From Arbacia lixula (Eukaryota; Echinodermata; Echinoidea; Arbacioida; Arbaciidae), in NCBI GenBank assembly GCA_963669155.1, contig OZ022579.1, positions 23,135,194 to 23,199,193 of the forward strand: DNA of 64,000 bases, given 5' to 3'. The notes beneath the pieces are model-generated. The model was not told the DNA's origin. It saw only the letters and a program-made list of their open reading frames with translations, and made no database searches. The translations under genes were made by a program, and so were the position numbers. This document shows positions 14,948 to 64,000 of the stretch, one piece after another (the stretch's first letter is position 1; each line of letters starts with the position of its first letter).

Positions 14948-17900
14948 TTAATGTAAATGCACTGTTCCAATAGGTGTAACACCCCCTCTCATACTGTATC
15001 GTGCAGTATTTTGTCCAGTTCGCATTTGAATAACTTTCTGAATCGACCCCATTGCTAGTGGACTAGGTGTCCTGAATCGCTTCCCTTGGAACCCTGGAGT
15101 CACAAAACCAGTCCCAGCCGGACTAGCCACGCCTGCTGGTGGTGAAAACCCTTCCAGCACACTACTCTCCCAGGAGAAGAACCCGCAACCGTTCCTGCTG
15201 GTGTTGGTATTAGTACTGTCCTTCAGTGCGGTGCTGCTTCCACGCCGTGTCCCAGGGGCGGGGCAGGAGTAGAAGGCCCTTCCCTGGTTGGGACCGGGCC
15301 TCGCCGCTACCCGCCTCTTGCTCCTCCGCCCACACTTGCACATAGGCGGCGTGATCTTGACGCCAGAGGTACAGGTACCCGTCCCAGGCTTGCCGCAGTT
15401 CGATGGCGTCTTGAACCCATCTGAGCTACCTCCACACCCACTCCCATCGCTACCTGGCGTCCTACATGCTACTTCCAAAGTCGTCTTTGCTCCCGATTTG
15501 CCATACTTCCTAATCGAGTTCTGATTGAAGAAAGGGAGCGGGCAGGCGGGTGGAGTTTTAAATTCAACTGCTTGCTTTGGTCCCAAGGTAGGCGAAGGGG
15601 TGCTCCCCATGGCAAATTTGCAGGATTTATTACCTTCATGTAGTCCGCAGGGTAGAGAAACTAAACCCTGCAAGTTTTTGTTGCTGGGGATTTCTTCACT
15701 ATGATCCCGAGTCACCTTCACCCGTCCTTCACCAACAGCTAGGTCATTCTTGTTCACATGATTCTCACATGAGGACATAACTGACCTCTGCCCCACTTCA
15801 CATGACTTTTGACCTGTTTTGACGATGCAGGTGTTGGTCACAGCACTCGCCACATCCAGGGATGCCCTATCGCTCCCATCCTCGTATATACTGAAGTATC
15901 CTTGTGAGTTCTTCGGCCTCTTTGTCTGTTCTGCAGAATGAGGCTTCCTTATCAGGCAACGGTCAGGACTACCTTTTCTCTTCTGAGACTTGAGTTCATC
16001 CCTGCCTGTACAGCCTGGATGTTCACCATGCACACTCAACGTTGTGTGCGTACCTGTCATTGAAGACCTTGATGAGGTGGATGATGCTGTAGGGACTGTT
16101 CTCTTGTGATCCTGGAGATCGTTCCTGCCCATCGTGCATGGACGTTTAGCGTGCGAACTCGAAGTCGATGAGGTGGATGATGTCAAGACTGTTGCTGTAG
16201 CTGACTGCTCTCTGTTGGTTTGCTGCTGATGGGATCCTAGCTGAGTCAGAACCCTTGGAACTGCTACTGGTTTGCCCTATGAAGGGAGAGAGAAAACCTC
16301 TGAATGAATATGCAAAAAATACAACACATAGAACCATCTTCATTTGCCACATTATAGAAATACATGTATTGTAAAGAAGACAATAACATTATGGTTGTTC
16401 CATTCTTTCTTCTCTACTACATGATTTCAAGTAATTTTAGAAGCCATGATTGCCATACAAGATGTTACTGGTGCTGCTTAATATGCCATCCCGCAAACAC
16501 ATTTACTCACACACAAACACACACCCACAAACACACACTTTCCCCTCCTTCCTACATGTACCTGTACATAACATTTAGCACATAGGTACAAATATAAGTA
16601 GCAGATTACAATTTCAAAGAGGAAGAATTTTATTGCACAGTATAAAAAATAATCCAGTGTTTAAACATACATGTGAACAAGACTATACAAAGTACAGATA
16701 CATTACAGACAATACACCTGTATATACAGAGACACTAAATGTTTTGTGAGAGCACTCTGTTAGAGAAATTCTTAAGTTTAGAACCAGAGCAAAATATTCA
16801 GAGGAACAAATAAGGTATGTTACTGAGCAGATAAAAATCACTCTGTATCTTATAAATATTGTTTATTTCATGTACATGTATCATATCTGGGGTGGTACTC
16901 TAAAAGAACCCCCCCCCCCCCCCCCACCAACCAGCTGATGTACATTTACAATAAATTCACTAAGTTCCCCTCTGTATGAATTAAAATTAAACTTAACATG
17001 TTTATTGTTAGATACAGAATGCAAATTGGGGAAGAGTCATATATCTCCTGAAATTGTTTGCTGATGTGTTCTGAGTGATGTGTAGCAGGGTTTGTAATTC
17101 TTCAATGTTTCTCCTGAAGTTGAGTATGAGAGGATCTGCGTTTATAGGTGCACAGTAAGATGGAAAAATATTAATACAACTCAGGATACAATTTCAAAGA
17201 AAAACGGTTTTATTGCCCAGTATAAAAAATTACAAAAACATCCATAGTTGAAATATTCATGTAAACAAGACCATACACAGTACAGATGCATTACAGACAA
17301 TTTAAGCACAGACACTAAATTTTTTTGGTAAAAATCCACAAGGTGAAGAAGATCCACAATTTTTTTTTCATCATTGTTTATCTCCATCGCACCCCGCTAC
17401 CCACCGACTGAATGGACTTGGTGATCTGGAGTTGGCAGCCATCTTGGATCATCCTCCATACCAGTCTAGCTGTGTTCTTGGCATCGTCCAGTCCTAGGAA
17501 TACAATCATGACCAAATGTCTTCCTTTTAACTTCTGAACAGTCCAGTCTTGTCAGTCATACTATTGGATCAAACTTTTAAAGGCATTAACTTTTTAAAAT
17601 TCAAGTAAGTTTTGGACGGGCCGTCCAAACCTCCACCCCCCCCCCCCCCCCAAAAAAAAAAAAAAACATACCTATATCTATCTACCAGTTTATATATTTA
17701 TATATCACAACATGACAAAATAATAATAATAATAATAGAGCACATTTATAACGCGCCTAATACATGTACTATGTTTCTAGGCGCTGTGTTGCTGCTGTCC
17801 CCGCAGTCATTAAGTGAAGTTCTATCCTTATACCAAATGGAAAGCTGGGACAGCAGCACCACGATTAAATTTAAATTACGAGAGGCAAATCAATTCAACC

Positions 17901-20900: not shown

Positions 20901-23900
20901 TGAAATGAAATTTGAAAGACAATTTGTATGGATAGGAAATAGATTTGACGAAATAGAATTGTTTAACTTAACCTACTGCTCACCGTTAAGATTTCCCGGC
21001 TGCGTGAACCCCGGTCTAGTTCGGATAACAATATTTGCCATGCAGTAACCAATCTAAGGTGTCTGGCAAAAGTGTGCCTATAAGGGTTATGAAGTTCATT
21101 CATAGCCTGTCGTTATTTGTCCATGCAGCAGATAATGCAAGAGTCATGCATCTTGGTATGTGAGTGGAGAAAGCCCTCCCACAAACACACTGGCTCAGTA
21201 AAGAATGTGCTTAACAAATTATATCAAGGACATTCTTTTAGCATTTTAGCATTAACATAATTTCAAAAGAAATTGTTCATCACTTTGCGTGCGCCAGATA
21301 ATCGGCTTTCGGTCACTCGTCTTCGTCTACACCTCTCAGATTGGCTTTGCTCTAGAAATTTAGAGTGTTATCATTTCATCAATATGCCTCCCCCTCGCAA
21401 GAAACAGAGTTGCTTCATCAACTCTGTGCAACTTAACGTTTCTTATTAGTTAATAATAGATAAGCGAAGTAGCTTTGCCATGCAATTTTGGTATTTTCCA
21501 CATCTTATATAACAGTTTTCTGTAAAAGTGTACCGGTATAGGTTTCAAAATATAGCAGTTCAAAAATGCCAACACAGAAAACAAAACGCAACTGAAAAGG
21601 CCTAAAAATAAACTTGGCACGGGGCGGATTTGGGGCGGGTACAATGGGGATTAGCGGTGTGACACTAGGAGCGTCTTCATCAGCCCGATGTGGGTGAAAT
21701 AGCGAGCTTGTTCTGATCGGGTTAGCTAGCCAGATCACGAAATAGCTAGCTATTTCCGTCTTCATTAGCCAGATCAGGCAAAATAGCGAGCTATTTGGTC
21801 GAGAAAATTTCCCAACAAATCTTGGGCTAGATGGAGCTAGCTCGAGCTAGTTCGCGAAATAGCTCGAGCTAGCTCGGAGCGTCTTCATTAACCCGAAAAT
21901 TTTCCGACCCCGACACGTATCAGCGCGCACGAGGCATTGTTTACGTCAGGTTTTTATACATGCGTGAATGCGAGCTCACAAACGAAGCCATGCAGTCATG
22001 GCCTATTCCCGTCGCACACTACGCTTGTGCGAACATCGGGATAATTTATGCATCCTGAGTTTCGAGCTTGCGTATCCCGAGTTTCAAGCTAATGAAGACG
22101 CGATTGCAACTTCAGGCTAGTTCCCCGGATCAGCAAACTAGCTCGCTATTTCGTCTGATCGGGCTAATGCAGACGCACCTACTGGGCTATATTCATTGGG
22201 GCAGGTTATGGGTTAATCTCTCTCACCTGTGAGATGCCGGTGAACTCTTGACAGAAGGTGCTCAGTCTGGGGTTCTCATCAGGCATCACATAGTGGTGGA
22301 ACTCAGCCTCCAACTGGCCAGTAGCGGTGTTCAGGAGAACAGCTGGGAACTCAACTGGATATAAACAAAAATGTGTATAGTACAGGTATTTCAGTGACCT
22401 ATACAGTATTTCTACTCACATTAGTGCCATTCTAATTGAGCTTAAAAAATCTTGAAGTTAGAAAAATCGCGAAGTTAGGGGATAGGAATACTGTAATAGG
22501 ACCATTTGGCTTTTGGTACGGTTGCTAGGCAGCTTTCACCCTAACTTCCCGATATTTTAAGCCCAATGTGAATGGCACTATATTGATGATTGCTTCAATG
22601 AATAGACCAGTTTACTTTAAATTCCCTTAGTCAAATTTATGGATGTTTCTTCCCTCGGGCCAAGTAATGATTTATTCCATTATCCTGTACATAACAATGG
22701 TATTTCAGTACTTGGAATCCACTTTGCACACATTAGTTGTTGTTATGTTGGGCAAACCTCGGACAAGCTTTTCGGTTGGCAGGGTAACCTTTGTTAAACT
22801 GATATGCATACAATTTGAATATGTCAGTAAACCGGTCTATTCCAGCTTCAACTCTGTAGTTTTAGGTTAAGATTAAGATTCGAGTTAGAATAATATGCTT
22901 AGGGTTAGATTAAGGTAGTGTTTATGTGATTTCATCACAATTTTGTGGCCAGATTGTCACATGAAACAACATTATTTGAAAAAAAATATGTGCGACATGA
23001 ATCACTATAAACTGCATAACACCAGCCCACAAACCTCTCAAGGCAGATATGAGAGAAAGAGGTCTGTATTGATATTGCATGAAAACTCAACTGCTCTGAA
23101 GGGATCTATTACAGACATGTCATTGTTTTAACAATCTTAGGAGACAGGTTTGATGTCAATTACTCACTTAATTTGTAAGCAGAGTGCTTATATTTACAAA
23201 GAACACATCCATTCTTCAACCCAAACACAGCTTTTCCACAGAATGCAAGCCCCTTACAAAGATTCTTGCAAATATTGCATCACCTCAGACACATAGTCAT
23301 AGACAAATAAATATGAAATGTTGATACTCACTAATCTCCTGGCTGGTGTTTTTCTGATCTTTCCAGCAGGTCGACTCAAAATCGATTACAATGACGTAGG
23401 AGAATGTCTGATCTGTGCAGCAAAGAGACCAATCAAAAGTTATATGAAATGAAATGTGCATGCCACCTAGAGCTACGTCCTTCAAGATTCTGGATTGCTT
23501 CTATCGCGGAATTTACATGACTCAAGTCTGCAAAAGAGAAACGTGCACTCTGCCACAGAAATTCATGCTGAACTGGACTAAATATACTGCAGTTTAAAAC
23601 TGCTGCTCCTTCCCTTTCTTCCATTTCCCTATGCAAATTCCTTTGAGCTGTAGTGTATAGGCCTGCCGTCTATCATTTAAAAACAACAAATCATTAAAAA
23701 TCAAAACAATCAAAATCATTCAAAAAATGTTTACCCATTCTTTGCTTCACATGAAAAAAAATTGGTAATTTGAGTGGACGAGAATAAACACTAAACTGTA
23801 AACGCACTAACAGTTCAAAGAGGCTGGGCATTAAGGCATCATTTTCATGCAATGATGAGTTTTTTTTTGCCCCGGCCCTGAGTGCTCACTCAAAATTTAA

Positions 23901-28700: not shown

Positions 28701-31700
28701 TGAGCAACATTTGTAATAATATTTGTAATATTATGTTTTGACAGAAAACAAGTTTGCTGTGGGCAGTGGGGCCAGACTTGTCTCCATCTGCTACTTTGAG
28801 GAAGACAATGATTGGTGAGTGGAAGCGTTTTGAGTAGCAAGTGTAAACACACCATCCTATTACCGAGCTACCATGTCTCCCTGATTTCGCAGGAGACTCC
28901 CTGAAAATAGATAAATATCACTGCATCTGATGTCATCACATCAACCAACTTCCCTGATTATTGATATGTTATTGTCATTATCTCCGTGATTTTTTTTAAA
29001 AGTTCTGGTGAAATTTCCCCAAATCTTCCTGATTATTGAATTTCAATATTATTAGTTCTGCTTTTATTTTACAATTTTCAAGCACTGCAGTGTGACGTCA
29101 TATGAGCATGTTGTCAAGACAACTGGTTCTAAACTATGAGGGTAGAGTGAACAGCAGTGATCACAGCAGGGACTCTCATTGGGAGTGCCTAATGCTGTTA
29201 GCCCGCTAGACAGTGTCATACCAGTGAAACTCTCACTTGAGTGATGTTGTTTAGAACCAGAAACCTGGATATGATGACACCAGTTGGGTACTCTATGGGA
29301 TTTATGTACAGTACTGGGTGGTGTTTCACCAAGCTGTTCGTAAGTTACGAACGACTTTACGAACGACTGGTGATCCCCTCTTGTGCTAAATGCGATACCA
29401 CACTTTGTTCATTGAGAATCTGATTTAGCACAAGAAGGGATCACCAGTCATTCATAAAGTCGTTAGTAGCTTACGAACATCTTGGTGAAACACCCCCTGG
29501 TAACAAGGTGCGTGTATGGCACATAATGAGTTAATGATATTGTGCTTGAAATTATGAATAGTTTTTATACCACACCGTTGTTTGTTTTGTAAGCTAAGAC
29601 AGAAATGCAATCTGAATGCACTATAAATGTGACCTCTCGGGCAGAAACCCACAAAAAGTTGACCAAAGTGAATTTTCACTTTTTGACATGGTTTTTAAGA
29701 GTAAGTTCTAAGCTTTAAAATAATGCTTGGGAGGTGCAGTTTCAAAGAAAAAATATGATCCAGAATAGCTGATAATATCTCAGACTTACTTTATGCCAAC
29801 AAATAGGTAGAGAAAGGATCTTTTTTTTAGATAAGACAGACTTCAAAAATTTGAGTTTGTCATCCCAAATGACATCTTTTTGTCTATTACAGAAAATCGT
29901 ACCCAAGGACTTTATGTGGGTTATGAGCCGGGCGGTCACAAATAATTGAATGGATTTTTACAAATATGTCTGTACTGTCTTATGTCAGGTGGGTGAGCAA
30001 GCATATCAAGAAGCCGATCCGCTCAACTGTGACCACCGTGGACTGGCATCCCAACAACATGCTCCTGGCCTGCGGCTCGACGGACTTCAAAGTGCGGGTG
30101 TTCTCTGCCTATGTGAAGGAGATCGAGTCCAAGCCCAGCGGTAACGTCTGGGGAACCAAGCTTCCCTTTGGTGTCTGCCTCAAGGAGTTTGGCGGTGGCG
30201 GTATGTACTTGATTGATTTCAATTTTATCCTTCAAAACAAATATGTATTTATTTTTTACGCACCTTCTTTACCATAAGGATAGATGGAACCATAAATGAA
30301 TCCATCTATTTGATTTCATTGCTATAAAATAGCATAATGTAATCTTTCAATTCGTATTTATTGGTGCTATTGTCGCGACACTCCTAATATTGAAAGGGTG
30401 GTTGCTGTGCCAATAGTTGCAAGGACAACAGCACTTTAGCTTTTACAAACATCGTATTAATCGCAGTAGAAACATATGTATTATTACTGTTGCATTGTAT
30501 CTTATGAAATTTCTTGATCAACTCAAGTACAAATTCATTTTGTAAGCCTCCTTACCTTAACCCGCTATTTACTGAGCCCACGTTTATACGGGTTGGCTTT
30601 TCCCCACTCAGATATTGAGCAGAGAGACTCTTGCGTAATCTGCTGCACAGACAGTAGACAACGGGCTATGAATGAGCTTTAAATTAATTGTAGGTTACAA
30701 TAAAGCCACAGTCCTTCCATTACTGTAGTTCCATGGGAAATGTTGACATCCTAACTGGACAAGGAGTGATTTCACGAAGCCCCAAAAGTAACCTAACCGG
30801 TTAAAACTACTGATTAATCGGATGGAACAGAAATTCATGTGGAAAACTAATTCTATCTGTAATATCTCTCTACAGGTGGCTGGGTGCACACGGTGTCGTT
30901 TGATGCCAGCGGTAACCGTTTGGCCTGGGCAAGCCATGACAGCACGCTGAACGTGGTCAACGCCCCGGCAGAGTTTGCCCAGGGCAAGTGCCGCCTCAAG
31001 GACCTGCCTTGCATCAGCCTGGAGTGGGTGGGACCAAGCAGCATTGTGGCTGGGGTGAGTCTCTGCAACACTGGAAGGCCCAGATTCACAAATGAGTTTT
31101 GCGTTTAGACCACGGTTTAAGCAAATTTTGTAGCGTATAAGCAGATAAGTATGCTTGATATAGCGTGCACACTTCAAAAGGGGTACTAAATTCATGCTAG
31201 CTCATTTGGTTTCGACCATGGTTTATTTCATTTCATTTAATCTACCCTGCATCAGTCTGGAGTTTCTGCAACACTGGAAGGCCCAAATTTAACAAATGAA
31301 TTTTAGATTTAGACCACGGTTTAAAGATTGTCCGTCCCTTTTGCAAGCTTAAAATTTAAAATCGTCTATCACGATCGTAAATTGGTGAAAGTGTGATTCA
31401 AGACCATTTCTAAGAATATAGCATGTTGAAGCTTTCTGTATATGTAAAAATTTCAGCCGTTAAATTTCAAGCCGACTTTTTTCGTATTACGAAAAAAGTA
31501 TTAGCCTTTGTTACAGTATCTATGTGGTTATTATGTGTGTGTGAAATCCTAATTTTATGAGTAATTACCAAACTTTGGAGATGATTCCTTCTATAGAACA
31601 ATTTTTTTCATAATGCATTTTATAATTTAATAAACAGATTAATCAATAAAGCAGATATTTCAACACAAACTGCTAAGAGCCTGAGGTAAAGACTATTAAT

Positions 31701-32834
31701 CAGACGTTGTTTACGTGCATTATTTGAATTTTACACTACGTATCAGTTTCAAATTGTGAATATAGAGCTTGCTAACACTTCTCTATATGTTTTGCCAATG
31801 TTTCGATGGTTTTGTGGTGATCTGAAAAAGGGACGGGCTGTCTTTAAGCAAATTGTGTAGCGTATAAACAGATAAGTAAGCTTGATATAGCGTGCACACT
31901 TCAAAAGGGGTACTAAATTCATGCTAGCTCATTTGGTTTCGACCATGGTTTATTTGATTTGATTTGATCTACCCTGCATCAGTCTGGAGTGGGTGGGACC
32001 TAGCAGCATTGTAGCTGGGGGGAGTTTCTGCAACACTGGAAGGCCCAAATTTAACAAATGAATTTTAGATTTAGACCACGGTTTAAGCACATGTTGTGGC
32101 GTATAAGCAGATAAGCACTCCTGATTTAGCACGTACACTTCAAAAAGGAACATGTGTGCGTTTTATGTAGGGTGCTGAATTCACTCTAGTTACTATAATT
32201 TAGACCATGGCTTATTTAAATTGATTTGTTTGTCCCTTGCACACTTCATTTAGCATGTAGTTGGTGTCACAGAAAAATGACAAGGTTACCAAACTGAGTT
32301 TGAGTCCTGCTCGAAGAGAGCGATTTATTTCCAAAGCGACTCAATAGAGGGCGACTTTGCATAAACATGTAAATTAATTCTCATGTGACAGTTGGCATTG
32401 ATGCATTCTCATAACCATAATTATTACCGATACTGTTTTTCAAATCTGTTGCTGCAGGGCCATGACTGTGAGCTGCTGCGTTTCCGCGTCGACGACGGCA
32501 GCCAGCTGACTTTTGAGGGGAGGGTTGGCAAGGCCCAGAAGAAGGCCCAGGCAAAAGTCAGGTTAGTGTCGGTTGGTGCCCTCATTTCAATCTTCCCTCC
32601 TTTGCTGAGGTGCATAGAGTGCTGAAGGGGTATCATCGTACCCATTGTTATGGAGGTCATGTGGCTAGGAGAGGAGAGACCCACTGGGTTCAGAGAATAC
32701 TCAATTTGACAAAGAAGACAGAAAAGTGTTGGATATTACCCACATTGGCCCAAATGATAGAGCAGTTTCGAGAAGAGCCTTCAAGGAAATGAACTGCCCA
32801 ACCCCACAAAGTGGGGAAAACAGACTTTAAACAT

Positions 32835-44600: not shown

Positions 44601-47600
44601 TATAAAGTACTTTTCTAAATGTAGCCATTTACATGTATGTGAGCAATTCTGTATAGTAAATGCAATTGTATTCTACATGTCTTCAGATCATGCACACCAT
44701 ATTTTACACAAACAAAAGATATATGGGGGGGGGGGGCATTTTATATTTACATCTGAATCATTCCAATACTGAGACAAAAATATCAAATATACAACATGCC
44801 TGCCAACCATCTAAAATTTAGAGGAAGGATTCCTGACCTTTTCCATGAAACACATTGTAAAAGTATAGAAAGTTCCCTTGTTCTGAATTTTACTTAACAA
44901 CATCATTTTGACTTCTTGCCTTGAAAGGCAGGAGCTATGATATAATTTATAATATAATATTATATGATATTAATTAATTAAGAGGAATAGATACTTGAAG
45001 AATACTATCCTTGTAGAGTGCTCGCAGTCCTTCTCAGGAAGAGCTTTGAAATAATAATACACAAGTTTAAACGGATGACTGTGAATTTGTCATGTTTATT
45101 GTCTAGAAGTATAATTATATTATGTAGCAGTGTTCTAATTTTTGAAGTGTTCTTTGATCAATTCGTGTTTGTTTGCTTTACGTGTGATATGCACTGCCAA
45201 TGTCAATGACTGAGATTGAATTTTACATATTTTTATGTGACAATAAATCTTGAACCTTGGTGTTTTCTTCAGACTATGAGAATGAGTCCCTGGCCGACAC
45301 AGAGTTCTCATACAAGTCTCACCAGCATCCTGAACACAGTCTCCTCCGTGCCGCCTCCACCACATACTCCCACTCCCAGCCAATCAACCCCTTCCCAGAA
45401 TGCCTCGCCCATGATCATGTGACCGTAGAGGATAACGAATCAGAGGATGACCTCGCAAGCCTCTCCAACTCAAGCGTTGCTTCGAGCGTCGACCCGACGC
45501 ATACCGTGGTCCCAGCAACTGGGAAGGCGCTACTCGGTGTCAGACGGCATGTGGATTTCATCCGTGAGCTGCCCGTTCATCTGTCGAAGTACATCCTGAG
45601 TTTTGTGGAGTACGAGGACTTGATGTACTGCCTCAAGGTCAGCCCGCACTGGTGCTATGTCGGGAAGGAGGTGGATGAGGACATGAAGCTCAGGCAAATC
45701 CTCTGGGAGGAGGTCATGCTTATGCAAGTAAGCACATTTAAGTTTGAGTAGATATGAAAGGGCTCAGTTGAAATAGAATCACCTTTATGACCAGCATATA
45801 GTACCCAAGTGGTGTTGTCATATTTGTTATGCAGGTTTTTTGTTCTCTTTTATGCTTTTCACACTGGCAAAAATTTCCTTAGCCCCGTACTATAGGTGGG
45901 GGGCCTTAGCACCACCTATAGTACGGGGCTAAGCTTAGACCACTTTCTGTTCTCATTGGTTTTTACCAAAGTGGGCTAGCCCTACCAATAATCCGGGATT
46001 ATTTGGCCCTACTGTACATAAAGCAGGGCTAACCCCGCAATTGTAGGGCCAAGCCAAATAGTCCGGGGCTAAGAGCGCCAGTGAGAACAGAAACGAAAAA
46101 TAGTAGGGGGCTAAGGAAATGCGGTGTCAGCTCTAAAGGCCAAGACGCTGAGACCAATCAGATAATGCCCGACGGGCGAGTGACCTTGATGTGGAGTGGT
46201 AAAGAGCCGATGTGCAAGACGTACACTCATAAATATTCATAAGCTGTCGAGAAAGTCCAGGGCTAACGATTTTGAGTGAGAACAACTAGTCGGGTTTAAA
46301 AAATAGTACGGGGCTAAGAAATGCCAGTGTGAAAAGCTTCAAAAAATAGTACGGGGCTAAGGATAGTACGAGGCAAAGGATAGTACAGGGCTAAGAAAAC
46401 CTAGTGAGAAAAGGGTATTTAATTGCTAGTTTCCCTGGTCCAACATTCTACAGTGGGCTAGTGTCAGGCGCTCTCAATGAGAGTGTGTGCAAGGCGAGTA
46501 AATCTTTGCATGTCCTACACTAACCGACTGCTTCTATGTTAACCCATCAGGGCTCGTCAGCCAAGGGGGGCAACCCGGTGTACGCCAGCCTGCTGGAGAT
46601 CCGAGTGCCTCGCCTGGTGGGGGGCGACTCCTCCGAGGTGCTGCTAGCCGACTCGCCGCCCGACGAGATCAACTTCAAGAGCGACATCAGCCTGGATACG
46701 TCTTACAGCGGAGTGGTGACGCACGACGTGGGTATGGAAGAGAGAAACATCTATTGCGGAGCCTACAATGTCATGGTGCTCAGTGACCAGTGAGTACATA
46801 TCTTGCAGGGATAATCCATCCTGAATTTAAAGACGGCCCTTCCCTTTTTCAGATCACCACAAAACCATCGAAACATTGGCAAAACATATAGAGAAGTGTT
46901 AGCAAGCTGTATATTCATAATTTGAAACTGATACGTAGTGTAAAATTCAAATAATGCACGTAAACAACGTCTGATTAATAGTCTCTACCTCAGGCTCTTA
47001 GCAGTTTGTGTTGAAATATCTGCTTTATTGATTAATCTGTTTATTGAATTATAAAACGCATTATGAAAATAAATTGTTCTATAGAAGGAATCATCTCCAA
47101 AGTTTGGTAATTACTCATAAAATGAGAATTTCACACATGCATAATAACCACATAGATACTGTAACAAAGACTAATACTTTTTTTGTAGTACGAATAAAGT
47201 CGGTTTGAATTTTAATGGCTGAATTTTTTTACATATACAGAAAGCTTCAACATGCTATATTCTCAGAAATTGTCTTGAATCACACTTTCTTCAATTTACG
47301 ATAGTGATAGACGATTTTAAAATTTAAGCTTGCAAAAGGGACGGACAGTCTTTAAGATATGTTCTAAAAGCAGAAACATGAAAGATACATTATTGAAGTT
47401 TTGACGAAAATCAGTCAAAGGATAAAAAAGTTGTGACTATTTGAATTATTAATTTTGTGATGTCACATGCAATGTGCTCTCCCATTGTGTGCTATGAATT
47501 GCTCTTTTTCTGTTTTTGATTGAGGATTTTTTTTTTCATAGGAGTATGTGTGTAAAACCTGTTTCTAATGATGTATGAAATTCACAGGTAAATCAATACA

Positions 47601-50600: not shown

Positions 50601-53600
50601 GGTGCTGTATAAGTCCCCAAAGCGACTGAACCGGTTTGGCTTGCCCAACCCCAACACCCACCACGGCCCCATCACTAGCGTCAAGGTGGATGACTGGCAT
50701 ATCATCTCAGGCAGCATGGACGGCTACGTCCTGGTGTGGAGCGCCCTCGGTGACCACGATCGGGCAGTCAATGCGCTCAGGCATCCAAAGTAAGTGTCAT
50801 CGACCATGTTTGTACAGTGTGTCCCAGAAAAAAGGAAACTGAGATTCTCTGTTATTTCTCTAGTTAACTGAAGAAAATAATTGAATATCATACACATCAT
50901 TAGAAAGCATGATGTTTCTTCTTTCATTTGACATCTCACATGATAGATAAGAGTCATGCGATGAGGAGCAACACGTGTTTAAAGAATAATTGTCAAAATC
51001 AAGTTGCGCAGGACAAATGGTCAAGATTTGTAAGGAAGCATCAACGTAATGCAAACAACATTCATTATTCTGCGCAAAACGTTTCTGACATTGAGCACTA
51101 AGTCTTGTAATTGCTTGAAATTAGTCATGTGTGGACAATTCATTGTGAATTTGGTACCAAACGAAAGAAGATACTTTACTCTCAATATTGCTGTCATTTT
51201 TATAATAATATGATATTTTATGATTACGTTATCGACCTCCAAAAACAGGTTTCCTTTTTTCTGGGACACACTGTATAACCATGATCCCATGCTAGAATCA
51301 GCGTTTTGATAGAGGACCGAAATTTGACGTCATATGAGCATGTTGTCAAGACAATTGGTTCTAAACTATGCGGGTACAACAAACAGCTAAATAGCCTTCT
51401 GGTGTAAATCATGAGGGGTCGGCATCTCATCAGTTTTCCAGTGTAGGCTTTCTGTCCACCCCACCGGGTTTTCATCCTGCTCTTAATCGAGAAGTGAAGT
51501 TGGGTTTTTAACATGCATAGATTAGGGCTCTTCAATACACAGAACCTCCATTTAACCAGTCCTTTACTCTGCTTGGGTATCTGCAAGCGTCCTTTTCTCC
51601 ACTCAGATACTAAGCAGCACGACTCCCCCACAATCTGCTGCCCAGAGAATAGATGACAGGCTACAAATAAACATAAAATTCCTTTCAGGTAGCTATTCAC
51701 CCACACCTTTGGTTACTGCAGTTCCAATGGCACATTTTGACATCCTAACTAGACCAGGGTTGACAAAGCCAGAAAATCTAAATCAGAGCATTGGGTTAAT
51801 GTCCTATCCAATTGGGAACATAATGTTTCCCCACAAAAAAGGGCAGGTGGGGAAACACACTAACGCTGGCTCTTTTGCAAGGATACATGTGGGACTCGAA
51901 CACACAGCCTTTGCCATTGAGAGACAAACTCCCTACTAATCGTGCTAAGTGCCTATTCTCCGCACCATACAGCCCGGTGCTGTGCATCCACATGGCGTAC
52001 CTGCGGCTGGTGACGGGATGTGAGGACGGTAAGCTGAGGATCTGGAACATGCTGACTGGAGACTGCCTCAGGGTGCTCCGAGGCAACAGCCGCTCAGACC
52101 CCATCGTCGCCATTCATCCCTGCGGGGAGAGGTGCGTATTGCTGCATTTACAGAAGTGCCAACCATTCCGTTTTTGCCATATTTGTTACCTTTTTTTTAC
52201 TCAAAATATGGCAGTATATTTTTCCCTTTGAAAATATATTTTTTTTAAAACATTTTTTTTCTTCTTTTTTTTTTTACAGCTCCCTTTTTCAAAAAGAAAG
52301 TGTTAAGTAGACATTTCTGTAGACATTGTGGATATGCAAATAATTGTGTGTGACCGCACAAATTACATAGGTGGTGTACATGTATAGTAGCAATACATTT
52401 AGGTGGGAATGAAGCGTCACCACCAACTCATCATGAATTCATCATTTAATCATCAATGTATCAATGCATTCATGATAGCTTTGAATGTGTAAAAGAGTTT
52501 GCCATGTTTGTGTCCTGCTGGACCCACAGGTTGCTGCTTCAAACCATTACCAATCTACTCATGCTGTGCTTCGAGGAGGTGGACTGGAATTACGAGCAGG
52601 AGGAGAAGATTGAGCTGCTGAGGTACAAGAGCCACTATGGGGATGCTCCCCTTAGGCAGCAGAGCTACACTGCAGTACGCGCACATCGGAGTCAACTCGC
52701 GGGAGCAGCGAACCCAAAGATCATCGCGCACACCACGGCACAGACCGACAAGAGTAGGACAAATCTGACTCACAGTACTCGGTCGCTTAGCAACAAGAGC
52801 CTGCAGGAGGCCAGGAAGACCCAGGATGTGTTTGTCAATGTCACCTTGACGCAGAATGTGAAGGGCCCCCTCTATCACAACACTCAGGGACGGCGTTCCT
52901 CGGACGTCCACGAACAGACAGACTTAGGCCTTGTAGAAGTGAATGGCCAGACAAAGACGTATAGAGTAAACTCGAGACCACCGACCGGACGGTCAAGGAC
53001 CACATCAAATGTGTATGTGAGTAAAGCATCGGCAGATGTCACGTCTCGGCCATCAAGTGTTCAGGTGTCCTCGAAGATGACCGAGTCTAGAGCCACCACT
53101 CCTTCAAGAGGCTTGTCCTCTGCACTCTCAAGGGTTTCCAGGTCAAATCCGTCTTTAGGCACCGAACTGAAGGACAACCGCCCAACAACTGCGGTATCCA
53201 CCCAGAGTGCCACACAGCTCAAGCTAACCAAGTTCAAACTGCCAATGAGAGGGCACAGCGCCCCCGTGAGACGAGCCAAAGGGGCGGCCACGGACGCCAT
53301 CTCACTCTCCGAGGCAAAGGCCCTGCTGCGCTCCCAGCAGAGGATCACCAACGAGGGGGTGAAACGGGACCGGCTACTGCTGACGTGGAGTAACATCGAG
53401 GAGGGCAAGAAGAACACCGACGTGGTTAACAATACCATCGCCAACGCCCTACAGATTGACTATGTGGGCTATGCGGCTCCTTCAGAGCAGTCCCTGCGAA
53501 CCTTCTCTAACAGGTCATCCTCAACGTCATCGGCTTCATCCACCGTGTCCAGAGGGAGTCTCCACAAGAGCAGCTACCCAAAGAACCCATCCCCACCCAT

Positions 53601-54270
53601 TGCAAAGGAGGTTGTTGTCCAGACACTTGAGCATATCCCGACCAATGTCAAGCCACCCAAGAGCATCCACCCAAAGACTGTCATCTCAACGGTTCCACGC
53701 GCCAACATCATCAGGCCTCAGACGGCGCAGGTCCTAGAACGAAGCGAGATGAAAATGCCTGCGAACACCAACATGAGCAACGCAAACCCGCTGAGAAGAT
53801 GCAAGAGCGACTCGATGCTAAGACATCAGTCGCCAGCGCCCGCTCCACTCTTTGAAGTTAGCCATATCGCCAGTCCCGTCCGGAAGAAAAAGAGCCATGG
53901 CTGGTCAACGTCTCATACTCAGCCCGTCACAATCGTGCCGATGCTAATAGGTAAAGGCCGGGAGAGTGGATCCACTCCCACAAAGCAGACGGAGCAGAGA
54001 CCAACGACCACCACGCGTCTGAGCATGATCCAGAAGCCGGTGCGCGATCCCCTGACCAATCACGGAGAGTTCCAAGTCCGGACGCGGCAGCAGACCCAGG
54101 ACTACCTGGAGTATGTGACGGGGATCCAGGAGAAATACTTCAAGGAGAAGGGAGAGGAGGAGAAGCAGCAGCAGAGGAGACTCTGGCTCCAGGTGGCCGC
54201 GGGAGGGAGACAGGGGAGGCGGTCCAGCAGCGTGCCTCCGCGTCCAAAGAAGACCGGACAGCCAAAGTGA
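41628..54270 (+). CDS. FBXW10: F-box/WD-repeat protein, FBXW10-like (10 coding exons)
   Basis: Probable substrate receptor of an SCF ubiquitin ligase. Exons: 41628-41637, 42563-43219, 45273-45727, 46551-46789, 48411-48614, 49181-49302, 49961-50109, 50602-50789, 51973-52131, 52530-54270. All are GT-AG with consistent phases, giving 1307 residues (human FBXW10 is about 1050). Exon 1 encodes only MAS plus one base. The N-terminal module resembles vertebrate FBXW10: CSRCESC at 74-80, then KKRFVLGLVRRFQSANLFSY, GKDYLYARSR and SNYFLGVLQM. The F-box is at about 319-360 (IRELPVHLSKYILSFVEYED). WD repeats cover about 430-728 (GSYDTSIRCWDIHSG, GSKDNQVKVWNFETGKC, GCEEGKVKVWSIKDACL, GSMDGYVLVWSALGD, GCEDGKLRIWNMLTGDC). 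The last exon encodes a basic Ser/Thr-rich tail of 580 residues, mostly disordered-looking, with a charged helix near the end (YLEYVTGIQEKYFKEKGEEE). Exon 1 is the least certain, but it has an exact phase match and good splice sites. Confidence 0.88.
42253..42483. mobile_element. Family C foldback, copy 1, before FBXW10 exon 2
   Basis: A nearly perfect hairpin of about 230 bp. The outer arms are ACACTGCAGCTCAAAGGAAT and the complement of ATTCATTTGAGCTGTAGTGT. The inner arms GTTGAGCATGAAACATGATG and CATCATGTTTCATGCTGAAC surround a loop of about 14 bases. It ends 79 bases before exon 2. Confidence 0.9.
43275..43480. mobile_element. Family C foldback, copy 2, after FBXW10 exon 2
   Basis: Same element as at 42253: left arm ACTACAGCTCAAGTGAATTG, inner arms TTCAGCATGAAACA and TGTTTCATGCTGGACTAGAC, right arm CAATTCCTTTGAGCTGGAGT. 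It starts 55 bases after exon 2. The loop is shortened compared with copy 1. Confidence 0.88.
44941..44985. repeat. AT-rich palindromic stretch
   Basis: TATAATTTATAATATAATATTATATGATATTAATTAATTA-type sequence with self-complementary TATAATATTATA, in FBXW10 intron 2. Another 25-base AT run precedes exon 3. A G10 run lies at 44727-44737. Confidence 0.6.
45841..46420. mobile_element. Composite foldback with repeated TAGTACGGGGCTAAG
   Basis: Ends are TTCTCTTTTATGCTTTTCAC on the left and the complement of AAAACCTAGTGAGAAAAGGG on the right. Inside, the motif TAGTACGGGGCTAAG or close variants recurs about ten times in both orientations, including the tight hairpin CCCCGTACTATAGGTGG / CCACCTATAGTACGGGG (45893-45929). 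Four direct copies lie near the right end (46303-46396). It fills most of FBXW10 intron 3. Confidence 0.75.
46805..47793. mobile_element. TTAA foldback MITE, family B, copy 4 (interrupted)
   Basis: The left end GGGATAATCCATCCTGAATT (46809 onward) is separated from the rest (47352-47793) by the family A insertion. The right part carries GCAGAAACATGAAAGATACA, TGTGATGTCACATGCAATGT, GGGAGAGCATCTGGCGCGTG and the right end GTGGATTATCCCTTTAA. It lies in FBXW10 intron 4. Confidence 0.85.
46831..47351 (-). mobile_element. TTAA-flanked MITE, family A, copy 3
   Basis: 521 bp, reversed relative to copies 1 and 2. Ends on the plus strand are AGACGGCCCTTCCCTTTTTC and GCAAAAGGGACGGACAGTCT, with TTAA at 46827-46830 and 47352-47355. 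It is inserted inside family B copy 4, in the TTAA of the family B CTGAAATTAAG segment. Confidence 0.9.
47999..48329. mobile_element. Foldback MITE, family D, copy 2
   Basis: Left end GGGGGTATTTCACCAAGCTG, right end on the complement GGTGTTTCACCAAGCTGTTC. The arms contain ACGAACGACTTTACGAATGA and its complement. It is longer than the copy at 29316 because of a spacer of roughly 170 bp between the arms. Confidence 0.85.
48791..49162. mobile_element. Foldback MITE, GGGCATATACTG family, copy 2
   Basis: Ends are TTTAAAGGGCATATACTGTA on the left and, diverged, CCCAGTAAGAGTATCTGCCC on the right. It is close to the copy at 8894-9271 through the inner arms (TTATTTGCCCTCAAATGATC). The right end is 18 bases before FBXW10 exon 6, so the acceptor region abuts the element. 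Confidence 0.88.
50559..50601 (+). repeat. Poly-C acceptor tract before FBXW10 exon 8
   Basis: C23-24 is followed by GCTCTCCCCCCTCCATTAG and then exon 8. The C run supplies the pyrimidine tract of this acceptor. Confidence 0.9.
50815..51273. mobile_element. Mariner-like MITE in FBXW10 intron 8
   Basis: 459 bp with perfect 25-bp terminal inverted repeats beginning CAGTGTGTCCCAGAAAAAAG, flanked by TA on each side (50813-50814, 51274-51275). The ends, length and target fit a non-autonomous Tc1/mariner element. The interior has only a short minus-strand open frame without transposase motifs. Confidence 0.9.
51290..51960 (+). repeat. Dispersed repeats in FBXW10 intron 8
   Basis: GTCATATGAGCATGTTGTCA then TTGGTTCTAAACTATG also occurs at 29097-29140 (ARPC1 intron 5), and a diverged form at 47810-47880. 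The later part matches 30578-30775. Near 51860-51950 a minus-strand stretch with GTGTTCGAGTCCC resembles a tRNA B box, but no A box or stems are convincing. Confidence 0.55.
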
Positions 54271-57900: not shown

Positions 57901-58530
57901 ACTTGCAGGTAAACATGGTATAAGATGAGAAATTGGATATATTCCTGTCTGTGATGGGTAGATAATGCTAGATAATGTGCAATAAGTATGACAACTGACA
58001 CATGATTTCTTGTGCGTTGACTGCATGAGATTATTGCTCTGATTTTGCTTATAATGAAAAGATGACACTGATGAATACAATTCTCAATGTGAAATGACAT
58101 TGAACACAGTAAAGGGGATCGATTGTAGTATATGCTTTTACTATACTGCAGAGAAAGAAATTTGTTTGAAAAGTTTAGTGTTTAAACTCAGTTTATGTGA
58201 TGTTAGATTATTGCAAAACTGCGAATGTACTCCCAACAAAACATTTAAGTCTGAAAGCATTTTCTGCTAATTAATTGATAATACACAATGTTGCGTCAAT
58301 GGTAATGAGAGAGTTAACTTATCACAGCTTCCGGTCCATCACCATGATAACACCATGATCTGTGGATTGTATTTTGATATTTGATTGTCTTAATTACTAC
58401 CAACATTGTTGTGTTGGATTTGGGTAATTTGCGCGTTTCCCAAGTTTTTTAAAAATCTGCCCTAACTGAGCAAAAACACAGCATCATCAATAATGAAAGC
58501 TTTTCTTGATTTTCAAATACAAGGCTTGGC
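54961..58530. other. Intergenic region, no gene seen
   Basis: Uniformly AT-rich DNA. The longest open frames (for example 57149-57424) have no recognisable domain, no supporting splice sites and no paralogue in the window. A small direct repeat (AAATTGTAAATCTTG, three units, 56505-56540) is the only structure I noticed. Confidence 0.6.
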
Positions 58531-58539
58531 GCAATTCCA

Positions 58540-58850
58540 CTTTGCTGTAATTACAGCAAAATTAGGAAGGTGTTTCGCATTGTTATTTTGCTGTAATTAC
58601 AGCAAAAGTGGGAACGTTGGTGTGTAGATTTGATATTTTGCTGTAATTACAGCGAAACCAGGAAGATGCCTTGACTCGATATTTCGCTGTAATTCCAGCG
58701 AAATTGGGTGTGCATCTTAACTTGATGTTTTGCTGAAATTACAGCGAAATTGGTCAGGTGTCTTGACTTGATTTCACTGTAATTCCAGTGAAAGTCAGTT
58801 TGATGCAAAAGACTCTGTTGTGGCATATTTTCGCTGTAATTGCAGCGAAA
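58540..58850. repeat. Array of seven 22-bp palindromes
   Basis: Copies start at 58540, 58586, 58636, 58682, 58728, 58772 and 58829, each 22 bp, with spacers of 24, 28, 24, 24, 22 and 35 bp. Consensus TTTYRCTGTAATTACAGYRAAA. Copy 2 (TTTTGCTGTAATTACAGCAAAA) is perfectly palindromic. Arm positions 4:19 read T:A, T:A, T:G, C:G, T:G, C:G, C:G, and positions 5:18 read G:C except A:T in copy 6, so pairing is kept while bases change. Spacers share a looser GGAAGGTGTCTTGACTTGAT-like consensus. The array is intergenic, and the core is TGTAATTACA. Confidence 0.92.
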
Positions 58851-58860
58851 TCAGGTGACA

Positions 58861-61300
58861 CATAGCATTATATCTAAACTTTGATGTTATTGCTATAAAA
58901 CAGAGAAGTAAGAAGGTAGTATTCATTCATAATGCTTGTTTTCTTCCACAAAAGTAAGTGTAAGCTACCAATATCAACATTAATGCTTGTCCAAGTTTAC
59001 CTGACATAGCAACAACTAATGTATGCAAACTGCATGTTCGTCTTTCTGATCAAAGGACATGATTTTGGTAAGACAGGTGAAGACATATTTCACTGGGCTG
59101 AAAAAACATATGTTAGAAGGACAGTCATTTGGAGTCAAGATGCTTCTCTGAAATTACATTGCATATAAGTAGTTATCAATTTCAATGAGTTTAGATTCAT
59201 TACAATTAAGACATTTCAAAATGCTGTCAAGACATTTTTGTGTTTACCGTGTCAGCTTTACAAAATAAGATCAATAGATATACTCTATGATATGATGTTG
59301 TGTGAGGGATATTTGACACTTCTGCACAAGTCTACATACAGTATAATGAATGGCTTTCCAAATTTGTCCTCAGATCCTGCACAGCCTACCTAGCCCTACC
59401 AAATAAAAGGAAACAATTAAATTGATCAATAATGCTAAATATAATTGTTTGTCTCGTAGTGTATGGTCAACGGAATAAAAAAAGATGACAAAGTTTCGTG
59501 AGCCACTGCAACACTTCGTCAGGTGTGATACAAAATTGTAGTAAGTAGGGGTTTCAATACCCTACTTACTACAATTTTGTATCACACCTGTCGAAGTGTT
59601 GCAGCGGCACACAAAACATCATGATCTTTTTAGATTCCGTTGACTATACATTGTGAGACAAACGATTATCACTATTGATGTCTGTCAAGAAATGAGCATG
59701 ACAAAAAACGAGAACTGTCACGTAGGGTAAATCTGCATGCCAATTACATATTACATACAAATAGTCAAATACCACTCTTAGAGCAATTAAATGATAGTAC
59801 ACTATTATTTATTATGGATAAGAGAAAAATAGTACAAAACAGTAGCGCATCTCCAGATTGAATCAGGTACATGAATTATTCTATTCACAGAAGGATCATG
59901 ATTAAAGTGTTACAGAATAAAGAAATATTTTACTTCTATAACACTGTCTTAAACTTGAAGGTCAGTCCAGTAGAAATCAAGTAGTTCACACAACTACTAT
60001 TTAGATTTTACCTCTTCTCCCATACCTAAAACTTCAATGTTGTGTACATTGTTGAAGGTTCACACACAAGCATTGATGGATAGAAGAAAATGCAAAGTTA
60101 TTTTTCCCCAAAAACTTGAATATACTACTGAAACACATTTCAAATTATCTTGCACATCCTAAAAGTAACTTGTCAAGGTCTATACTATACATGTACAAAT
60201 AGTTGTTACCAGCTTATATTTGAAAAAGGAGCTGAGCCTCACAAGCGAAATGCAGAAAATATCTTTCTCTTTCACTATTTGAATACAACTGTTAAGTATC
60301 TTGTCACAAAGTGAGCCTTCCATATTTGTTATAGTGTTTCATACACTTTTTTTTCAGAATTTGGTGATGTCCACATTTGTAATACAATGCCTTGAATGGT
60401 TTATACTACATACATAACATTCATACTTTTTATGAACAGATTGACAAATATTGTAAAGGGCCAAAATGGGTTTTCATCAGAGTCAGCTTATTGCAATCTA
60501 ACATTTTGTTCTGGATTACCAATATGGCAGCATCTGCAGTCATTAAACTTTTGTTAAAGCTCAAACACAATGAGTGGCAATATTCAATGTATTATTGCTA
60601 TTAACTAGACCAGGCATGCATGATAAAGTGATTAAAGTCTTTCACACTCTAACAATTCCTTAATAATAAAGGGCAGTCAATGCACTGCTCTCTGTAGGAA
60701 TGGTATTGCAGCACGATTGCAGGTCAAAAAATAGAATCATGGAAATACCATAAAAAATGTAGAAAAAAATATGTATAAAAACCTTTCACACATTATTAGA
60801 ACTAGAAGCTTACTTTCAGCGGATTTAGATTCAGCTAGATTTTTGGTTGAATTTTGATGAGGCCGTCCTATAGCCTGTAGACCCGAGACCGCGATAATAC
60901 ACATCATGGCTCTCTACACCCCACTATTGCATGAGGTGAGCAGAGCCCCACGGACTGGTGTAATACTGTACAGTGTATTGGTAAAAGGGCTGCAAATAGC
61001 TTTGCCCCATTATGAGTATTGACTTTCTATCAATGACACCATATCCAAATATACACACCTTTGATATCATATTGACACATTATTTCATGAACACTCATAA
61101 GATATTATATTATGTAGTACAATCATGTATTACAATTAATCAAGGAGGGACTTCAAATTTGAGTACTGTATTACTCATTGCCCTGTAGGTCATGTTATGC
61201 ATTTTTTTTTGAAGATGCACAACAAACATACACAGCAAGCTTCATCATAGACAATATGTGTTTTACATAGAGTAGAAAAATATCACTATGTAGCATTATA
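58861..61300. other. Intergenic region with one large hairpin
   Basis: AT-rich with no gene seen. The only clear structure is the foldback at 59445-59667. Isolated open frames (for example 60392-60604) look accidental. Confidence 0.6.
59445..59667. mobile_element. Foldback element with about 105-bp arms
   Basis: The inner arms TACAAAATTGTAGTAAGTAG and CTACTTACTACAATTTTGTA are perfectly complementary around a 9-base loop. Pairing continues outward through CACTGCAACACTTCGTCAGG / CTGTCGAAGTGTTGCAGCGG and the ends ATTGTTTGTCTCGTAGTGTA / its complement. No target duplication is obvious. Confidence 0.85.
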
Positions 61301-61309
61301 TACCTATCT

Positions 61310-62790
61310 GAGATGACAAAAGGAGAAGGCGGGTGGGAGGGAAGAGGATGAGGAGGTGAGGATGAGAAAAAGAGGAAGAAGGGAGGAGAGGAAGATATGT
61401 GATGTAGCTAGGAGCTGGATAAAGAGCGGAAGCGAACAGAAGGAGAAGGGGAAGAGATGGAGGAAGAGAAAATAAGGGAAGAGGAGGAGGAGGAGGGGGA
61501 GGAGGACGAAGAAGAAGAAGAGTGGGGTAAATGATGTGATTAACCCCGTTCATATACACCGCCTATCCGCGAAAAAGGCGCAACATTTGCGGCAATTTTG
61601 CCGATGCATTACCGATAGCTGCGTATATGAACGGGAATCGCTCAAATAATGCGGTATTTGCTTCCTCCTTTTTTGCGCTTATTTTGCGGCTTTTTCGCGG
61701 ATCGAGACCTAGTAATAATACCGCAATATTGCGGTAAGCGAATCTTATAAACTGCGTCCGCAAAATAGGCGTAAATGTTGCGCCTTTAGCATCGTGCTCT
61801 GGCCTGTTGGTCGCTAATCCTACCGCTCGTATGGCTGAGCGGAGCATGTCACCATTGGTTTGGAGAGAGTCCAGCTGTCCAAAACACCGCAACATTACGG
61901 CTTTTGGGGGTGTATATGAACGGTGCTTTTGCGGCTCGCTGGAAACTTCCTTACCGATGTGCATCGGTAATAATAGCGGTATATGGTATATGAACGGGGC
62001 TAATGAGGGATAAATGGGGGGGGGGGGGGGGGCAGAGGCCAGAGGGTGAAAGGTGAAAGGGTGGAGGAAGAGAAAATAAGTATGAAAAGGGAGGGGCGAG
62101 GAGCTTCAGGATGGGAAGGAGGAGGAAATTATCAGGGATAGATGAGGTGCAATAGGGGAGAAATGGAGGGTGGAGGAATAAGGGAAGGAGGTGGAGGAAG
62201 ATGGGGAGCTAGGACGGGAGGGATAGGAAGTTCAGAAAAGATGAGGTGTTGAGGAGAGGGGTACAGGACATAGAGCGAAAGGGGAGGATGTGAAGGTAGA
62301 GAAAGAGGAGAAGGAAGAGGGGATGCTAGAAGAGTAGAAGGGGAAGTAGAGTAAAATCAGAGAGAAAAATCACCTGCATAAGAGGAATAGGAACAGTGGG
62401 GGGGGGGGGGGGGGGGGAGGTGGGTGGGGGGGGAGGGTGGGGGGTGGGGGAGGATCAGGGGGAGGAAAAGAGGATTAGAAAGACGGGAGGAGAAGGGGAG
62501 GATAGGAAGACGAGGGATAGATGTGTATGAGAAGTAGAAGAGGGACTATAAGGGAGAGGTGAGGAAGTAATGGAGGAAGAGGGAGTGGGAAAAGAGGAGG
62601 AGTGAGAGGAACAGGGAAGGAGAGGAAGGCCATTGATATTTGAGTTGCATCAGGAGAAAATATGGGACAGAGGAAGGAAATGAGAGGAAACTGCAATGGG
62701 AAGGTATGGGGAAGATGTATGTCGAGAGGAGGGGAAGGGGAAGGGGGAGAAGAAGAAAAATTACCTGAAGAAAACAAGTGAAGATCCTTA
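61310..62790 (+). repeat. Purine-rich (GGA/GAA) tract with G runs
   Basis: About 1 kb of almost pure purine on the plus strand (GAGGAGGAGG, GGAAGAGG, AGGAAGAA units), split by the transposon at 61544-61999. G runs occur at 62018-62032 (about 15) and 62398-62417 (about 20), with more G-rich sequence to 62460. Pro/Leu/Ser-rich minus-strand frames are artefacts of composition. Confidence 0.9.
61544..61999. mobile_element. 456-bp MITE with CCCCGTTCATATA ends
   Basis: Left end CCCCGTTCATATACACCGCC after TTAA (61540-61543). The right end on the complement is CCCCGTTCATATACCATATA with CTAA following (62000-62003), so a TTAA duplication with one mutation is likely. Internal copies of GTATATGAACGG lie near 61623 and 61911. 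It interrupts the purine-rich tract with normal-composition DNA containing GCGG/CCGC and TTGCGG motifs. Confidence 0.8.
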
Positions 62791-62886
62791 AACTACACAT
62801 AAGTTTTTTTTTCTCTTCCACCTTCCCCATCCCCTCAACTTTTTTTCCTTCTTTTGTCCTCCTAAATCCCTCGATTGGTTACTCAC

Positions 62887-62990
62887 CCCTGCTCCTCGGA
62901 GGAGGGACAGGGATGAGGGCTCTTCCTTAAGCCCACTTCCTTCTGCAACTGCTCCCATTTCTCTACCTTGTATCGTAAATGGTCTGACAC
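62887..62990 (-). CDS. Possible exon of unidentified minus-strand gene
   Basis: The frame reads VSDHLRYKVEKWEQLQKEVG then LRKSPHPCPSSEEQG, ending at a good donor CAGGG|GTGAGT. It is preceded on the minus strand by T10 then AAAAAAAG, a weak acceptor. The length of 104 bases would leave phase 2. The composition looks like a real amphipathic coiled segment, unlike the pyrimidine-derived frames next to it. I do not recognise the protein and found no partner exon that joins in phase. Confidence 0.3.
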
Positions 62991-63385
62991 CTTTTTTTTA
63001 AAAAAAAAAACATGCCTCAGTTGAATTCTCCTACATAGAACATTCAGCAAAATTACATCACCTGACTCAAGGTGTTCATACACAGAAGGTTCTAGAATCA
63101 GCATTTAGAACCAGCAATTGTAAATGAAAAGGTTAAGAAGAGAGTTATTTTTTTTGAAGATCGCAATCACTGTTTCCCTTAAAAATATACATAAAGACTT
63201 CTAATACATCATTAAATTGGTGATATGGTAATATCTACATGCAAGCATAACAAGGTTGATGATGGAATATAATACACTAGTTGTTCACTTTCTGAACATA
63301 CATTATGTCTGCGCTCCAGCTTAGTTTGAATTTGAATATTTCACCTCTTGCATTCATTTTACCAGATCTTCATGAAGTTCCTGCA

Positions 63386-63462
63386 TTATCTAATCTTATA
63401 TCTCCAGAGGTCAAGTTTCCAGTGATGTGCTTTCTTCAGAACAGCTTGTTCTTGTTGCTGCC
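63386..63462 (-). CDS. Possible terminal exon, unidentified
   Basis: After the acceptor-like TTGTTTTCAG at 63463-63472 (minus strand), one frame reads QQQEQAVLKKAHHWKLDLWR then YKIR and stops at TAA. The composition is plausible for a coding C-terminus, but only this 77-base block supports it. The other two phases stop sooner or at a similar distance. Confidence 0.2.
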
Positions 63463-64000
63463 CTGAAAACAAGAATGGATAGGAAATGTAATTCTGTGAT
63501 TAAATCCATTAACGACCACAAAATAATTCCAAAGTATTAACTTCATTGATCTCCACAATTATAGTATTTAGATAAGTCCTAAAGGACACATCAGTGCCAG
63601 TGGTGTACAGATGGACTCACTAAATTAAAGATTTGTTGTTCCGTACTGAATATTCAAAATCTAAAATATTTAGCTCAGCTCTAGTCTGGTGGCAATCATT
63701 TGATTAGCATGTCTATACCAATACATGATACGTTGATAACAGAATTTTAGATTGTTATGCTTCAGTTGATAACATGATAGTATTGGACTTATAAAGCCTG
63801 AGGTAGACTGGTTTGAGAGGAGATCTAGCACACATTATGGATGCGTGCTCATATTTTAACTGCCTCAAAGTCTGAATTTGTATACAGGAAAGAGAAGTAA
63901 AAGGAATCATGAAATGCAGCACAGTCCAGTTAACTGAACGAACACCAAATCAGATCATGTTCACCAAATATTTCATTCCACACTTCTATTCTTTTGACTA

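Follow-up and report, generated by a model that had tools for sequence, protein, structure and literature searches.

The palindrome array and its host element

The window analysed here, a stretch of 64,000 nucleotides of the Arbacia lixula genome (C4:23135194-23199193), carries a row of seven 22-bp palindromes, which start at 58540, 58586, 58636, 58682, 58728, 58772 and 58829 and are separated, start to start, by 46, 50, 46, 46, 44 and 57 bp; the positions and the spacing of 44-57 bp given in an earlier note on this DNA were thus reproduced. On the plus strand, positions 51824-54270 contain a WD40-like stretch similar to FBXW7 structures, followed by a 604-aa ORF without Pfam match, perhaps an F-box/WD gene that ends 4 kb before the element described below; on the minus strand, a GRF zinc finger (E 5e-11) is encoded in a 412-aa ORF at 14948-16186. 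The features of the array and of its surroundings are listed here, paired positions of a unit being written as 4:19 and so on.

58398..58401, left target-site duplication (TSD) TACC; the same 4 bp flank the right end
58402..64000, plus strand, part of the transposon within the window; termini common to other copies, TACC on both sides
58402..59408, plus strand, outermost ~1 kb of the left terminal inverted repeat (TIR); 82.6% identical to the window copy's own right end
58540..58561, palindrome unit 1
58586..58607, palindrome unit 2; T at position 4 compatible with CpG decay; 23 of 26 intact left arrays have C:A at 4:19
58636..58657, palindrome unit 3
58682..58703, palindrome unit 4
58728..58749, palindrome unit 5
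58772..58793, palindrome unit 6; T at position 18 compatible with CpG decay private to the window copy; the remaining left arrays, 26 of 27, have A:C at 5:18
58829..58850, palindrome unit 7
59441..59669, foldback with 110-nt arms; recurs in the left ends L009, L013, L016 and L017

Each palindrome has 9-11 complementary pairs out of 11, and a search for the core with up to three mismatches finds it 14 times in the window, where 3.4 matches are expected and none of 100 shuffles has more than seven; the matches with at most one mismatch are seven and correspond to the array itself. The shuffle counts, together with the pairing, rule out a chance origin of the row. The spacers, too, resemble one another beyond shuffled sequence, so a unit of ~46 bp is repeated in tandem. 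No match to it was found in a viral sequence collection; a Lactobacillus tandem array with a shared 14-base core, from a prokaryote collection, was judged unrelated, and sub-threshold microRNA matches are those that any palindrome row would give.

The array had been considered intergenic, and a candidate for an undescribed element; it is not an isolated feature but sits 138 bp inside the end of a mobile element. In the whole genome (607 Mb, 590 contigs) the core GCTGTAATTNCAGC occurs 325 + 318 times, versus 2 + 2 for the backwards pattern. The first 100 places listed are mostly in arrays, while some are single or unpaired, and among them are five inverted array pairs, 13-25 kb apart, on contigs C1 and C2. 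Alignment of the ends placed a sharp left border at position 58402; the right border, inverted and matching, is at C4:23213640, 14,447 bp beyond the window edge, so that the element measures 20,046 bp. The inverted homology of the two ends continues inward past ~1 kb; over this first ~1 kb six right-type ends match the window left end at 81.5-83.5% identity, and the TIRs of a ~14-kb copy on C1 are 81.5% identical to each other. The seven-palindrome array is found at both ends of the element in opposite orientation, in each case with the first palindrome starting 138 bp from the tip.

The termini read AACATTG, and an exact 4-bp TSD flanks 20 of the 23 copies with both ends compared, a set outside which are the left ends L025, L030, L031 and L047, whose partner tip lies beyond the compared stretch. 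The 20 duplicated sequences are mixed, the commonest being AACA (four copies); the remaining three copies, with no exact duplication, are at C1:410949 (TACT/TAAT), C19:17313981 (CATA/TATA) and C7:10632524 (no match). The inverted array pairs, the shared tips and the exact duplications identify the host of the array as a DNA transposon, probably of the cut-and-paste type; TIRs and a TSD of fixed length, 4 bp, are both class II features. The foldback at 59441..59669 belongs to the element too, since it is present in four other left ends.

The tip AACATTGTTGTGTTGGATTTGG, with up to three mismatches, has 49 + 56 matches in the genome (2 + 3 for the backwards control), and 100 of these 105 places yielded 32 tip pairs. 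Among these, 17 span 13.8-15.1 kb, six 15.9-17.3 kb, four 19.7-25.1 kb, the window copy included, four 38.8-48.7 kb, and one 262 bp; the last (C13:22961071-22961332) would be a very short derivative. Within the ~14-kb family, left-type ends share 97% identity on average, so this family would be fairly young.

Arm changes and probable CpG decay

The earlier note had described pair 4:19 as passing from T:A (units 1 and 2) through T:G (3 and 5) to C:G (4, 6 and 7), and pair 5:18 as changing from G:C to A:T in unit 6; the window units read exactly so. From these changes it had suggested that the arms covary and that symmetry itself is maintained. According to this explanation, a hairpin RNA, a cruciform or a strictly symmetric dimer site would be under selection and the arm changes would be compensatory. 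The seven window units alone are indeed suggestive, with two double-changed pairs, a score reached by 11 of 500 shuffles, and a second test gave P 0.057; in addition, the array folds as RNA with a z of about -12 versus shuffles on both strands, but strong folding is expected, because any row of palindromes folds.

A larger sample was obtained from 52 arrays, 27 left-type and 25 right-type, where 359 of 364 units are gap-free; L051 (same place as L018), four duplicate left loci and the partial end L060 are outside this set. Over the 359 units, pair 4:19 is T:G in 99, C:G in 98, T:A in 90, C:A in 71 and T:C in one; pair 5:18 is G:C in 302, A:C in 32, G:G in 21 and A:T in one, with three others, and the only symmetric A:T is that of window unit 6. 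Across the 14 unit majorities the states at 4:19 are counted 4, 4, 3 and 3 times (Fisher p 1.0). Changes with respect to the unit majority at paired positions are one-sided in 79 cases and two-sided in none, and symmetric pairs at the CpG sites are 138 of 359, against a shuffled mean of 147.4. Thus, no covariation beyond chance is present in the 359 units, and the signal of the seven window units is a small-sample effect.

Selection on symmetry is refuted for pairs 4:19 and 5:18 by these counts, and a third pair also argues against it: 9:14, next to the palindrome centre, is broken in four of the seven window units and in 8 of the 14 unit majorities of the 52-array set. Hairpins in a transcript, another suggestion of the earlier note, find no support, since C:A is common alongside T:G, which forms a wobble pair on just one of the strands, and no clear RNA-type preference is thus seen on either strand, and no Rfam family matches the array at gathering score. 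Overall, maintenance of symmetry for its own sake appears highly improbable.

Ordinary decay of CpG sites is probably the best account of the apparent co-changes of the arms. Columns 4/5 and 18/19 of the window units always read CpG, TpG or CpA, and other copies add a few further states, such as GA in right-end unit 5. At 4:19, 23 of 26 left arrays have C:A in unit 2, which has the symmetric T:A in the window, L025 and L027; at 5:18, unit 6 has A:C in 26 of 27 left arrays and G:C in 24 of 25 right arrays. Both are symmetric in the window because of a C-to-T change at a CpG, the one in unit 6 being found in the window copy only. The window as a whole has an observed/expected ratio of 0.56 for CpG, 1.25 for TpG and 1.28 for CpA, a depletion with complementary excess that would be the mark of methylation decay. 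Indeed, differences from the end-type majority amount to 57 of 1440 sites in CpG columns and to 77 of 6484 in the other palindrome columns, a 3.3-fold excess. A CpG-bearing palindrome row in a CpG-depleted genome can therefore mimic compensatory evolution, and a genome-wide sample undoes the mimicry.

Conservation of the palindromes and their possible role

The remark that spacers drift more than arms proved correct, with 68-73% identity for spacers and 93-94% for non-CpG palindrome positions; unit-to-unit identity outside CpG columns is 93% versus 70-72% for the spacers in a comparison where one right end is counted twice. The same contrast is found between related elements. When units 1-4 of the window are compared with those of a 39-kb relative, 68 of 72 palindrome positions and 52 of 76 spacer positions are identical (p 4e-5), with 120 of 138 in the terminal 138 bp; for the short derivative L074 the corresponding values are 67 of 72 and 57 of 78 (p 0.001), with 105 of 130 in the terminal stretch. 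L074 (C1:49203900-49204800) is ~0.57 kb long and retains seven palindromes, six of them with an intact GCTGTAATTACAGC core. Among the arrays, changes with respect to the end-type majority affect 77 of 6484 non-CpG palindrome sites and 229 of 8066 spacer sites (p 2e-12), and all seven units are gap-free in 48 of 52 arrays. Fixed differences between left and right ends are fewer in palindromes (9 of 154) than in spacers (22 of 157, p 0.02), but no different from those of the remaining TIR examined (14 of 178, p 0.52). From these alignments, the maintained site would read roughly TTTyrCTGnAATTnCAGyrAAA, with the symmetry of pair 9:14 not kept. Dozens of copies, each with two end types, thus offer a case of subterminal palindromes conserved while the intervening DNA drifts.

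This pattern bears on the possibility that the array is a neutral minisatellite hitch-hiking in the TIR. The spacers are tandem-homologous, other minisatellites occur in the window, and fixed left/right differences are alike in palindromes and remaining TIR, all of which speaks for such an origin; however, seven units are kept in 48 of the 52 arrays, and the palindromes are conserved where spacers are not, even in the relative with altered spacing, so that neutrality is improbable.

The reading that we favour, and regard as likely, is that the array is a subterminal repeat of a cut-and-paste transposon whose units are bound by dimers of a transposase or accessory protein, the ~14-kb copies being non-autonomous. 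Palindromes conserved over drifting spacers, at a fixed distance from both tips, fit a dimeric protein of this kind. Thus, the proposal of a binding site for a dimeric protein, already present in the earlier note, survives owing to palindrome conservation within arrays and between relatives, while the covariation argument on which it had been based fails. Each palindrome would most likely be occupied by one dimer, formed either by the transposase or by an accessory protein that binds DNA, and the row of docked dimers at each end may help to pair the ends or tune activity. The ~14-kb copies and the related window copy appear non-autonomous and would depend for their movement on a protein from another locus, for which the ~39-kb relatives that share the tips are a possible source. 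The spacing of the array is uneven, 44-57 bp, and would not correspond to a whole number of helix turns, which counts against this reading; so do the similar share of fixed left/right differences in the remaining TIR, the three of 23 copies and the one 39-kb copy without an exact TSD, and the negative outcome for a transposase in the ORFs tried.

A different binder could also account for a 22-bp dyad motif that is conserved at the two ends of many copies, namely a repressor or transcription factor of the host acting through the homeodomain-like TAATTA core to silence or drive the element. However, like arrays at both ends and at a fixed distance from the tip would fit end recognition better, and 8 of 14 unit majorities have a broken 9:14 pair, which lies inside the TAATTA core; this alternative is rather unlikely.

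The piggyBat left end, the nearest worked-out case among those compared, has three sites 44 bp apart, each composed of a motif and an imperfect palindrome. The transposase binds to each of them independently, with two cysteine-rich domains holding the palindrome, and the subterminal sequence restrains activity (PMC11707139). Since the latter effect is inhibitory, an influence of the Arbacia array in either direction can be envisaged. The related piggyBac has identical 19-bp palindromic sequences in both ends (PMC11707139) and a 4-bp TSD, TTAA (PMC9587614). Repeated subterminal palindromic sites, the 44-bp spacing of the piggyBat left end and a TSD of 4 bp are points of likeness; unlike these elements as described there, the Arbacia element has a row of seven palindromes in each of its ends, the first of them 138 bp from the tip. 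The question whether subterminal arrays help or restrain is raised in general terms by the piggyBat paper (PMC11707139), and the transposase of the present family would allow it to be tested for long rows of dimer sites in very large transposons.

Interior, long relatives and classification

In the ~14-kb copy on C1, left pieces align inversely to right pieces (1,282 of 1,552 and 4,204 of 5,800 bases), so this copy consists mostly of two long inverted arms. No transposase domain was found in the 10 of its 36 ORFs (from two pieces) that were tried, nor in 10 of the 27 ORFs of at least 58 aa from the middle of a 25-kb copy on C2; the 10 ORFs tried from three probes of the 39-kb relative on C21 gave no recognised domain and no transposase. 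Profile matches of ORFs in all these pieces are weak, with E of at least 0.03, below the cut-off. The 25-kb copy (C2:11968387-11993488; its middle is L073) is flanked by the TSD AACA, and 10 kb from its middle show almost no similarity to the compared C1 and window pieces, with a CA-rich microsatellite.

A transposase gene is present in the window copy, in a nested PIF/Harbinger element located beyond the window at C4:~23205404-23210074 (L007 ~6211 to L008 ~881). This insertion contains an ORF for a DDE_Tnp_4 transposase (E 7.5e-33) and a marginal MADF ORF and, by our own parsing, is bounded by TACCCCCATTCCAC inverted repeats with the 3-bp TSD TTA on both sides; the C1 copy has an empty site at the insertion point, with one base different. 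The gene was rejected as the family's own, because it belongs to a nested insertion with its own TIRs and TSD that is absent from the C1 copy. The insertion explains some of the additional length that the window copy has.

The long tip pairs, found among the 100 of 105 tip places, are the following.

C15:4775960-4815184, ~39-kb relative, 39,225 bp
C15:4841790-4880584, ~39-kb relative, 38,795 bp
C21:8626839-8666103, ~39-kb relative, 39,265 bp
C12:10359503-10408220, 48.7-kb relative, 48,718 bp

A 1.5-kb probe from the centre of the C21 copy matches two places in C15 and one each in C12 and C102 at 99-100% identity, and C96 equally well over 1,036 bases, which suggests that the copies sharing it are young. 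The left end of the C21 copy holds six palindromes or more; as in the window copy, the row begins at base 139 counted from the tip, but the spacing is altered further inward. This copy, the only ~39-kb one with its ends read, has flanks without a matching TSD. The last ~430 bases of the probe are a widely dispersed repeat (40 scored of 7,311 candidates genome-wide), which also occurs in the window at 31320-31753, 888-1322 and 46921-47355, with 94-97% identity to the 39-kb probe. The family is unusual in combining ~14-kb copies, one of them mainly two long arms, with ~39-kb relatives that have the same tips and are near-identical where probed. It is conceivable, though doubtful, that the two C15 copies, the C21 copy, the 48.7-kb copy on C12 and the pieces on C96 and C102 represent a giant transposon, recently active and from a superfamily not yet described, with a transposase or an accessory protein that would bind the palindrome rows as dimers and would also move the ~14-kb foldback copies.

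PiggyBac, Kolobok, Ginger, Harbinger and Galileo/P each differ from the family in a feature compared. PIF/Harbinger elements have a 3-bp TSD; apart from the one nested in the window copy, this superfamily was set aside for a family with a 4-bp TSD, where the DDE_Tnp_4 gene lies in the nested element. A 4-bp TSD is typical of Chapaev and Sola1, and one of 3-4 bp of Academ, each with its own transposase; in length, that of the family fits all three, which would remain candidates. PiggyBac and Kolobok were discarded, as none of the 20 TSDs is TTAA. Kolobok shares the length of its TSD (TTAA, 4 bp), and so do KolobokP solo LTDRs (3-5 bp), but KolobokP has the structure LTDR-INT-LTDR with long terminal direct repeats (PMC9587614), while the ends described here are inverted. 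Ginger1 and Ginger2 also have a 4-bp TSD; their tips are TGTNR, their targets CCGG/CCGT (Ginger1) and RTATAY (Ginger2), and Ginger1 measures ~2.6-7 kb (PMC2836005), whereas the present termini are AACATTG and the TSDs mixed, so both were excluded.

Galileo, of the P superfamily, has very long TIRs with tandem repeats and nested transposable elements, its longest copy consisting of two TIRs without a transposase segment (PMC4168063). Long TIRs, tandem repeats inside them, nested elements and a copy made of two arms are all found in the present family; however, the Galileo TSD is 7 bp (8 in three copies) instead of 4 bp, for which Galileo/P was rejected, and its repeats are ~140 bp long and reported from one copy of its genome (PMC4168063), while here seven ~46-bp units occur in nearly all arrays compared. 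Repbase relies on TSD length and the first 11 bases of the tip to sort non-autonomous elements (PMC4455052). A literature search did not find GCTGTAATTACAGC and did not recognise the family, which is no proof of its being unpublished.

A further palindromic feature of the window lies at 21715-21876, where a cluster of overlapping AGCTAGCT/CTCGAG-type palindromes has 9 or 10 complementary pairs out of 11 each.
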